Assembly (NCBI GenBank): GCA_003278535.1
Contig: QCEG01000001.1
Location: 124,001 to 188,000, forward strand
Origin: Prochlorococcus sp. AG-355-N18
Lineage (GTDB): Bacteria; Cyanobacteriota; Cyanobacteriia; PCC-6307; Cyanobiaceae
Direction of reading: 5' to 3'
DNA: 64,000 nucleotides
In this document: in pieces, positions 14,037 through 40,015 of the stretch
How positions within the stretch are numbered: the stretch's first letter is position 1
Layout: each line of letters begins with the position of its first letter
Made by a program: the position numbers and the translations under genes
Notes under the pieces: model-generated
Told to the model about the DNA's origin: nothing
The model's database searches: none
What the model saw: the letters and a program-made list of their open reading frames with translations, nothing else

Positions 14037-15176
14037 ATGATTAATTCATATAAGAAAAACGCGAAATTGGTTTTAAGTAATGGAATTGTCTTTCCAGGAT
14101 TCTTTTTTGGTGCTTCTGGTACAGCTATTGGTGAAATAGTTTTTAATACGGGAATGACCGGATATCAGGAAGTTATTACTGATCCAAGTTACTATGGACA
14201 AATATTAACATTCACTTATCCTGAGATTGGGAATACTGGTATTAATTTTGAAGATTCAGAATCTAACATTAATGTTAAAGGAATAATTGTTAGAAATTTT
14301 TCATTTAATAGCAGCAATTGGAGATCAAAAAAGAATTTTAATCAATGGTTAGTTGAGAAAAACATAATAGGACTATATGGAATTGATACAAGGGCTCTTG
14401 TTAAAATTTTAAGATCTAATGGTGCGATGAATGGAGTTATTACCTCTCTAGATAACACTGATGAAAGTTGTTTAAAGATAATTTGTGATGCACCTAAGAT
14501 GGAGGGATTAAATTTATCAAATGTTGTTTCAACAAAGCAAAAATATTTATGGAAAAGTCATACGCAAACAATATTTGATTTAAGAAAAAGATATTATGAA
14601 TCTGCTAAAAAGTTAAAAATTGTGGCAATTGATTTTGGAATTAAAAATTCAATTCTAAATAGACTCGTATCCCATGGTTGTGAAGTTTTGGTTTTACCTT
14701 CTCGATCTTCTCTAGATGATGTTCTGTCCAACAAGCCTGATGGTATATTTTTCTCAAATGGGCCAGGCGATCCTTCTTCTGTTTCCGAAGGTATCAATTT
14801 AGCAAAATCTCTCATTAAATATGGTGAAATACCTATGTTTGGTATTTGCCTTGGTCACCAAATATTTGGATTAGCATTAGGAGGTTCAACTTATAAATTA
14901 CCTTTTGGACATCGTGGTTTAAATCATCCGTGTGGTGAAAATAATAAAGTTGAGATAACTAGTCAGAATCATGGTTTTGCTATTGATCCCAATTCTCTCT
15001 CAAAGGACATAGTTAGAATTACTCATTATAACCTTAACGATAATACTGTAGCTGGCCTGGAGGTTTATAATAAGCCTATATTTAGTGTGCAATATCATCC
15101 AGAAGCAGGTCCTGGCCCACATGATTCAGATTATTTATTTAAAAAATTTGTTTCTCTAATGTTAGAAAGATGTTGA
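14037..15176 (+). CDS. carA: Carbamoyl-phosphate synthase small (glutaminase) subunit
   Basis: It hydrolyses glutamine and feeds ammonia to the large subunit for carbamoyl phosphate (arginine and pyrimidine synthesis). The N-terminal domain (LVLSNGIVFPGFFFGASGT, NTGMTGYQEVITDPSYYGQI) leads to a class I glutamine amidotransferase domain with the nucleophile in GICLGHQIFGLALGG and the His/Glu pair in QYHPEAGPGPHD. The ORF-track start at 13977 would overlap trpD; the ATG at 14037 (MINSYKKNAKL) gives a normal 379-residue protein. Confidence 0.96.
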   Translation: MINSYKKNAKLVLSNGIVFPGFFFGASGTAIGEIVFNTGMTGYQEVITDPSYYGQILTFTYPEIGNTGINFEDSESNINVKGIIVRNFSFNSSNWRSKKNFNQWLVEKNIIGLYGIDTRALVKILRSNGAMNGVITSLDNTDESCLKIICDAPKMEGLNLSNVVSTKQKYLWKSHTQTIFDLRKRYYESAKKLKIVAIDFGIKNSILNRLVSHGCEVLVLPSRSSLDDVLSNKPDGIFFSNGPGDPSSVSEGINLAKSLIKYGEIPMFGICLGHQIFGLALGGSTYKLPFGHRGLNHPCGENNKVEITSQNHGFAIDPNSLSKDIVRITHYNLNDNTVAGLEVYNKPIFSVQYHPEAGPGPHDSDYLFKKFVSLMLERC

Positions 15177-15226
15177 CATATTGTTTTCTTTTGATTTGAT
15201 AATTACATTTGATATATTAATTTTTT

Positions 15227-15231
15227 GGAGG
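15227..15231 (+). promoter_or_regulatory. Shine-Dalgarno GGAGG that decides the STAS protein start
   Basis: A perfect GGAGG, rare in this AT-rich sequence, lies 6 bases before ATC 15238 and 9 bases before ATA 15241. It is more than 70 bases from the ATG at 15304, so it supports initiation at one of the two isoleucine codons. Confidence 0.65.
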
Positions 15232-15240
15232 TATTAGATC

Positions 15241-15603
15241 ATAGAAGATTTCCAGAAGTTAACCGTTTCTTTAAGAGGAAACCTTGAGGTTAAAACAAAC
15301 ATTATGGTTTTTACTTTTAAAGGCCAACTTGATGCTTTCTCAGAAAAACAATTTAAGACTTTTGTCACTAATAATTTAAAAAATGACCTTCCATTCGTTA
15401 TTGATCTTACAAAAATAGATTTTTTAGATTCTTCGGGTCTTGGAGCACTTGTTCAAACTGCAAAAGAATGCAAAAAGACGAAACTTGGGTTCTCTGTCGT
15501 TGGCAATTCAAGAGTGTCGCAAACAATTAAACTTGTTCGTTTAGGGGATTTTCTTAATTTGAAGTCAACCCTTGAAGATGCATTAAATTATTTTAAGAAT
15601 TGA
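15241..15603 (+). CDS. STAS-domain anti-sigma factor antagonist, probable non-ATG start
   Basis: A SpoIIAA/RsbV-like protein. The phospho-acceptor loop is FLDSSGLGALVQTA. The ORF track starts at 15304, but that removes the first beta strand. Reading upstream in frame gives EDFQKLTVSLRGNLEVKTN, which is needed for the STAS fold. The frame stays open only to a TAG at 15235. Between that and 15304 there is no ATG, GTG or TTG in frame, yet a strong GGAGG lies at 15227-15231. The start is therefore probably ATA (15241) or ATC (15238). It lies in a run carA, STAS, mrnC, rlmB. Its partner may be the RsbW-type kinase at 39581. Confidence 0.85.
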   Translation: MEDFQKLTVSLRGNLEVKTNIMVFTFKGQLDAFSEKQFKTFVTNNLKNDLPFVIDLTKIDFLDSSGLGALVQTAKECKKTKLGFSVVGNSRVSQTIKLVRLGDFLNLKSTLEDALNYFKN

Positions 15604-15998
15604 ATTATTGGATTCAAAACTTGGTTCCATATGGATCTCCCGAGGATATAGGTGTTATTCAACTTGCTTGGCTTGGAGATTCGGTATGGGAACTCCACCA
15701 AAGACTAAGGCATGTTCATTTCCCTTTAAAATCTAAAGATCTCCATTTATCTGTAGTAAACGAAGTAAAAGCAAAATCTCAGTCAAAATCATTAAGTCAA
15801 ATTGAACATTTATTAAATTCAAATGAAATTGATTTAATTAGGCGTGCTAGAAATAAAACAAAGAGATATCCAAAATCTTCAGACCCCACCATATACTCTA
15901 GAGCAACTGGTTTTGAAACTCTTATTGGTTGGTTATTTTTAAAAGATCCTAAAAGATTATCAACACTTTTTGAATATTTAGAATTAAAAATGAATTGA
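15600..15998 (+). CDS. mrnC: Mini-ribonuclease III
   Basis: A stand-alone RNase III catalytic domain without the double-stranded-RNA-binding domain; the family trims 23S rRNA precursors in bacteria. The signature IQLAWLGDSVWELHQRLR is near residue 20 and the second acidic cluster is TGFETLIGWLFL near residue 105. The 132-residue length fits MrnC. The start is TTG, overlapping the TGA of the STAS gene (TTGA). It is followed 4 bases after its stop by an rRNA methyltransferase, an arrangement like the mrnC-rlmB pair of Bacillus. Confidence 0.88.
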   Translation: MNYWIQNLVPYGSPEDIGVIQLAWLGDSVWELHQRLRHVHFPLKSKDLHLSVVNEVKAKSQSKSLSQIEHLLNSNEIDLIRRARNKTKRYPKSSDPTIYSRATGFETLIGWLFLKDPKRLSTLFEYLELKMN

Positions 15999-39580: not shown

Positions 39581-40015
39581 ATGTCCTTACTTCGGGGCAA
39601 AAATATTTTTAAAAAATTTTTTAAAAGACCAAAGATTAACTGGTCAAACTACGAATTTGAATCATCATTACAGTTAAATGAATTTGTCGATAAATTATTA
39701 GAACCTATTGAAAATTCTCAATCAAGCTATCTTATAAAGCTTGGTTTACATGAAGCTTTAGTTAACGCAGTAAAACACGGAAATAAATTAGATCCTAAAA
39801 AAAATATTAGAGTAAGAAGAATAATTACTCCCAATTGGTGTGTTTGGCAAATTCAAGATCAAGGTAATGGTTTAGAAATAAAAAAAAGAGATTACAAATT
39901 ACCAAAAAAAATAAGTAGTGTAAATGGACGTGGTCTATACATTATTAATGAATGTTTTGATGACATTAGATGGAGTAGTAAAGGTAATAGGCTTCAGTTG
40001 GCTTTAAAAAGGTGA
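39581..40015 (+). CDS. RsbW-type anti-sigma factor/serine kinase (HATPase_c)
   Basis: A 144-residue GHKL ATPase domain. The N-box is LGLHEALVNAVKHGNKLD near residue 64, the G1 region IQDQGNGLEI and the G2 region VNGRGLYIINECFDDIRW. Single-domain proteins of this kind bind and phosphorylate STAS antagonists and sequester sigma factors. The only STAS protein in the window is 24 kb away at 15241. The last 12 bases overlap the convergent DUF6439-like gene. Confidence 0.85.
   Translation: MSLLRGKNIFKKFFKRPKINWSNYEFESSLQLNEFVDKLLEPIENSQSSYLIKLGLHEALVNAVKHGNKLDPKKNIRVRRIITPNWCVWQIQDQGNGLEIKKRDYKLPKKISSVNGRGLYIINECFDDIRWSSKGNRLQLALKR

Follow-up and report, generated by a model that had tools for sequence, protein, structure and literature searches.

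Where does translation begin in the STAS-domain gene that is flanked by carA (ending at 15176) and by a mini-RNase III-like gene (starting at 15600)? The question is raised by a window of 64,000 nucleotides from Prochlorococcus sp. AG-355-N18, in which ATC (15238-15240) and then ATA (15241-15243) lie directly 3' of an in-frame TAG (15235-15237), and the earliest in-frame ATG, GTG or TTG past this stop is the ATG at 15304, codon 22 if the ATA is counted as codon 1. The ATA is followed by GAA GAT TTC CAG AAG TTA ACC GTT TCT TTA AGA GGA (EDFQKLTVSLRG). A first-pass annotation, made from the letters alone, had described the frame as closed at 15235 and without a canonical start until 15304, with a perfect GGAGG 6 nt ahead of ATC 15238 and 9 nt ahead of ATA 15241; the window sequence bears out these positions exactly. 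The features of the locus are collected in Table 1.

Table 1. Position of the STAS gene, its inferred start and associated features in the window.
Feature	Position	Strand	Basis or remark
GGAGG, Shine-Dalgarno (SD) motif	15227..15231	+	Sequence; 9 nt ahead of ATA 15241
TAG, in-frame stop closing the frame upstream	15235..15237	+	Sequence; stop here in 93/119 Prochlorococcus loci
AUA, inferred start codon	15241..15243	+	Invariant in Prochlorococcus; AUA/AUC/AUU in 230/231 cyanobacterial loci
Predicted STAS-only anti-sigma-factor antagonist, 120 aa, Ssr1600 ortholog, TGA stop	15241..15603	+	Pfam, TIGR00377, AlphaFold, PDB matches
ATG that gene finders would choose; not the inferred start	15304..15306	+	ATG in 31/119 Prochlorococcus loci; after strand 1
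Mini-RNase III-like gene, TTG start overlapping the STAS stop (TTGA)	15600..15998	+	Ribonuclease_3 domain, 2.8e-21
Stand-alone RsbW-like kinase, likely partner, ATG start	39581..40015	+	HATPase_c_2, 1.7e-14

The encoded protein matched Pfam STAS (2.3e-18) and TIGR00377 (7.6e-18), both above cut-off, and the STAS domain covered the whole protein with a SpoIIAA-like fold, as is required for membership of this group. An AlphaFold model built with 14 homologs had a pLDDT of 92, and Foldseek comparison of this model with the PDB gave matches to SpoIIAA and RsbV (1th8, 6m36) with TM scores of about 0.75-0.8. The phosphorylatable serine motif DSSGLG expected of such an antagonist (D63, S64, S65, G66, L67 and G68) was invariant in the alignment. 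A search of the class with our profile A1 returned one clear ortholog, with E values of about 1e-34 to 1e-43, as against about 1e-12 for other STAS proteins, and the gene order STAS, mini-RNase III, rlmB, DUF1816 recurred in distant families. By its sequence, the gene is a STAS-only anti-sigma-factor antagonist of the RsbV/SpoIIAA type and the ortholog of Ssr1600 of Synechocystis, with no biochemistry to support anti-sigma binding in Prochlorococcus.

The genome that carries the window has one STAS gene of the Ssr1600 type, one RsbW-like kinase with an ordinary ATG (the only HATPase_c_2 match of its type) and one match to an RsbU-like (SpoIIE-type PP2C) phosphatase. Both the cognate kinase and the phosphatase that a partner switch calls for are present, without physical evidence of interaction. 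No STAS match was seen in the genomes searched from one genus of Cyanobiaceae, g9 (G207, G261, G288, G310, G329, G344 and G358), and an RsbW-like kinase was also missing from 7/7 of these genomes, which are 95-99% complete. The module seemingly has been lost in this one lineage; the joint absence is probably a single shared loss, and fits a partnership between the STAS protein and the kinase.

Orthologs were gathered by searches of the genus, of named Prochlorococcus assemblies, of the family and of the class, and the DNA at the start was extracted. Within Cyanobiaceae, the STAS gene was obtained from 49 of the 59 GTDB genera sampled. After identical sequences had been dropped, 231 distinct loci were aligned from all 29 GTDB cyanobacterial families yielding an ortholog, three of them (L198, L252 and L282) by hand around short indels; these are phylogenetically related sequences and not independent events. 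The start position was occupied by ATH (ATA, ATC or ATT) in 230 loci and by CTG in one, and ATG, GTG or TTG was found there in none of the 231 distinct cyanobacterial loci. An alignment over many Prochlorococcus genomes had been suggested as a check on the first-pass annotation, and it gave ATA in 119/119 distinct loci with no ATG at the start position; in a 120th Prochlorococcus locus (L198) the codon is likewise ATA if a 2-codon deletion is taken into account. The 59 loci from other Cyanobiaceae had ATC (28), ATA (24) or ATT (7), and the 52 loci from the 28 other families had ATT (47, including L252 and L282), ATC (2), ATA (2) or CTG (1), so that the third base drifts by lineage. The sole locus without ATH, L255 from genome G628, has its CTG behind AAGGAGG and an in-frame ATG 30 nt upstream.

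A GGAGG motif (once GGGGG) was found 8-10 nt ahead of the ATA in Prochlorococcus. In nearly all of the remaining Cyanobiaceae a purine-rich SD precedes the ATH by 8-9 nt; in other families the distance is mostly 5 nt. This difference in spacing, 9 nt (8-9) in Cyanobiaceae versus 5 nt in most other families, is unexplained. Bases -2 and -1 of the start are pyrimidines nearly throughout the 231-locus set. No canonical start occurred from the upstream in-frame stop to codon 40 in 68 loci, and codons 2-14 were conserved as protein. The gene meets the definition of a near-cognate start, namely no usable ATG, GTG or TTG and a conserved near-cognate codon behind an SD. The ATH cannot be read as a conserved internal isoleucine codon, because the upstream frame is closed without any NTG in 164/230 loci, the sequence upstream carries 1-nt indels and the SD lies just before the ATH. 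We infer from the alignment, with high confidence, that translation of the STAS gene starts at AUH. That residue 1 is fMet is likewise an inference, with no peptide, ribosome-profiling or reporter evidence.

What might such a start be for? The initiator fMet-tRNA would pair imperfectly with AUH, and IF3 would disfavour such complexes, so that even a good ribosome-binding site may give only modest, IF3-sensitive translation of the STAS gene. Unphosphorylated antagonist would be kept scarce relative to the kinase/anti-sigma factor, and the alternative sigma factor would stay off until the phosphatase acts. Work on Synechocystis has identified Ssr1600 as an anti-SigC antagonist; when unphosphorylated, it binds Slr1861, the anti-SigC factor, and SigC is released (New Phytol 2025, PMC12329169). 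The ratio of Ssr1600 to Slr1861 was critical, and extra Ssr1600 slowed growth in high CO2 (PMC12329169). We count this critical ratio and the harm from overproduction as support for dose limitation. ATH at 230/231 loci across the class, with an SD at a fixed distance, is counted as support for the dose-limited explanation, as are the precedent of sigR in Streptomyces (discussed below) and the co-absence of kinase and STAS gene. Counted against scarcity is the observation that Ssr1600 was readily detectable on western blots, where it was mostly phosphorylated (PMC12329169), indicating that the protein is not vanishingly rare. On balance we consider it likely that an AUH start, initiation disfavoured by IF3 and a limited dose of antagonist together make up the explanation. 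Taken on its own, dose limitation as the reason for AUH is an inference that we hold to be fairly probable, and the near-cognate start probably keeps this sigma-switch protein scarce. For IF3 as the discriminator in vivo the inference is only slightly better than even, and it has no experimental support from cyanobacteria.

AUH could also be the real start and have no regulatory meaning, as a historical accident in a gene for which low expression is tolerated. No expression has been measured, and the drift of the third base by lineage is compatible with such an accident. However, AUG is a single substitution away and was found in 0/231 loci, although drift alone should often have produced canonical starts, and an excess of Ssr1600 does harm in high CO2. 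We regard an accident as improbable but still a serious contender to dose limitation.

Translation could instead begin at a downstream canonical codon, which would be the ATG at 15304 in the window and, as published, a TTG at codon 7 in Synechocystis. This follows the logic of gene finders, and in the Synechocystis study the TTG was taken as the initiation codon and recombinant protein made from it was active (PMC12329169). The same study named ten residues of Ssr1600 (L24, D25, F27, R33, G43, D58, S59, S60, L62 and G63) and the antibody epitope LHNSLAEAIAATTEG (PMC12329169), which allowed its numbering to be placed on the AUU-started frame. The epitope matched 15/15 at the A1 hit in genomes G558 and G575, and the link of these genomes to Synechocystis rests on this match. 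All ten residues fit when the numbering of Ssr1600 starts at codon 7 of the AUU-started frame. In these close relatives, however, codon 7 is CTG (G558) or CTA (G575), and GAGGAGG and ATT are kept in both. Because codon 7 is not a canonical start in the relatives and the ten residues fit, the published start of Ssr1600 is very probably six codons too late, as far as can be judged without protein data. A discussion of the start codon was not found in PMC12329169.

The downstream codons also fail elsewhere. Depending on the genome, the first in-frame ATG, GTG or TTG after the ATH can be as early as codon 4 or as late as codon 108. At codon 22, only 31 of the 119 Prochlorococcus loci have ATG, and 74 have ATT. 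In the AlphaFold model the first strand comprises residues 11-18, in agreement with the earlier proposal that this strand is encoded upstream of ATG 15304, and a start at that ATG would remove it. Codons 2-14 are kept as protein, and the SD is placed for the ATH. ATG 15304 and the TTG at codon 7 were both rejected as starts, since neither is conserved and 68 loci lack any canonical start before codon 40; very little room remains for a downstream start.

The first-pass annotation had left the choice between AUA and AUC undecided. ATC 15238 lies 6 nt from GGAGG, nearer the usual optimum, and is ATC in 108/119 Prochlorococcus loci. It is GTC, ACC or AAC in the other 11, and CCC or GCC in most other Cyanobiaceae, while the ATH at 15241 stays. 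AUC 15238 was rejected because the codon varies and the ATH at 15241 does not, and AUA 15241 is, on this comparison, near certain as the start in the window; the chance that initiation occurs at the AUC is as small as that of a downstream start.

Smaller still is the likelihood that translation comes from an upstream canonical codon by readthrough, by frameshift or through an open frame. In-frame NTG codons do occur upstream in 49/111 loci outside Prochlorococcus, and within Cyanobiaceae other than Prochlorococcus roughly half of the loci carry such a codon, at varying positions. These NTG codons lie at unrelated distances, the SD is 3' of them, the frame is shut without any NTG in 164/230 loci, and the upstream sequence shows 1-nt indels and relatively few synonymous changes; an upstream start was rejected on the closed frames and the scattered NTG codons. 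An error of one base at 15238-15243, in sequencing or in assembly, was named as the dull alternative when the locus was first described; it is excluded because isolate, single-cell and metagenome assemblies give the same reading in hundreds of separately assembled genomes, genus- and class-wide, and no support for an error was found.

No Rfam match was found in 14900-15700, and folding revealed no marked RNA structure over the start (no shuffle control was made). Promoter-like elements, TTGATT and an extended -10 (TG-TATATT) separated by a 16-nt spacer, occupy 15191-15218 and stop 8 bases short of the SD. This sequence shows good conservation in Prochlorococcus and would, if it is a real promoter, leave the STAS mRNA with a leader of only about 16 nt. 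The total from the scan with this promoter pattern was near chance (5 found, 3.0 expected). At the other end of the gene, the TTGA overlap of the STAS stop with the start of mini-RNase III was present in the Prochlorococcus loci reaching that point and in many other Cyanobiaceae, which suggests, by inference, that mini-RNase III is translationally coupled to the AUA-started STAS gene.

If the AUH start is correct, the starts of Ssr1600 and its orthologs would be corrected, and gene callers limited to ATG, GTG and TTG must choose a wrong codon for them. The overexpression construct, in which the presumed TTG was swapped for ATG (PMC12329169), would by the same token have lost six residues as well as the native start, and the Ssr1600 dose experiments may need re-reading. 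A near-cognate start conserved across the class in a sigma switch would open IF3-limited dosing of a regulator to direct tests in model cyanobacteria. In the open-licence literature we found no paper pairing 'non-canonical start codon' with Synechocystis and nothing relevant on 'AUU start codon' in cyanobacteria; reports elsewhere are possible.

To our knowledge, very few bacterial genes use a near-cognate start. The textbook case is infC, and the first-pass annotation had accordingly hinted at autoregulation. In E. coli infC starts with AUU and in Streptomyces with ATC (reviewed in PMC5472188). As in the STAS gene, an AUH start has been kept in infC over long evolutionary time in a good ribosome-binding context. 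IF3 autoregulation demands that the gene with the near-cognate start encode IF3, and this is not so here: infC encodes IF3 and the STAS gene does not, so IF3 would not be controlling its own gene. There is also nothing to connect the STAS protein with regulation of its own translation, and autoregulation is not supported. We tried infC as a near-cognate positive control in Cyanobiaceae, and it failed, since the start of infC in the members examined is an ATG directly after an in-frame stop. In loci L301-L303, L337, L343, L344, L346 and L347 this ATG comes right after an in-frame TGA, with no evident SD. Outside Cyanobiaceae ordinary ATG or GTG codons are on offer, and the true start of infC is not settled.

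A tentative idea, and one that we think doubtful, is that in cyanobacteria it is the gene for the anti-sigma antagonist, and not infC, that has the IF3-sensitive start, such that the state of initiation tunes the sigma switch. Were this true, the level or activity of IF3, the initiator tRNA and free 30S subunits would set the dose of antagonist, and the sigma switch, which adjusts growth to carbon and light, would be tied to translation initiation class-wide; in Cyanobiaceae, the TTGA overlap could bring mini-RNase III under this control as well.

Among systems related by protein, SpoIIAA and RsbV of Bacillus share the STAS fold and the DSSGLG phosphoserine motif with the cyanobacterial protein, and we know of no near-cognate start in either. 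Ssr1600 shares orthology, but the start given for it in the literature is a TTG that lies six codons 3' of the conserved AUU. By analogy, a dose-limiting near-cognate start of the sigR type appears to be a better precedent than autoregulation of infC. The sigR gene of Streptomyces starts with GTC and is repressed by IF3, and its replacement by ATG unbalances the switch (mBio 2017, PMC5472188). Like the STAS gene, sigR encodes a partner in a sigma/anti-sigma switch and has a near-cognate start that gene callers missed; this start is conserved in the genus, and the balance with the anti-sigma partner is critical, as it is for Ssr1600. The two differ in that sigR encodes the sigma factor itself and uses GTC within Streptomyces, whereas the cyanobacterial gene encodes an anti-sigma antagonist and uses AUH across a class, and in that repression by IF3 has been shown for sigR but is only inferred for the cyanobacterial STAS gene.
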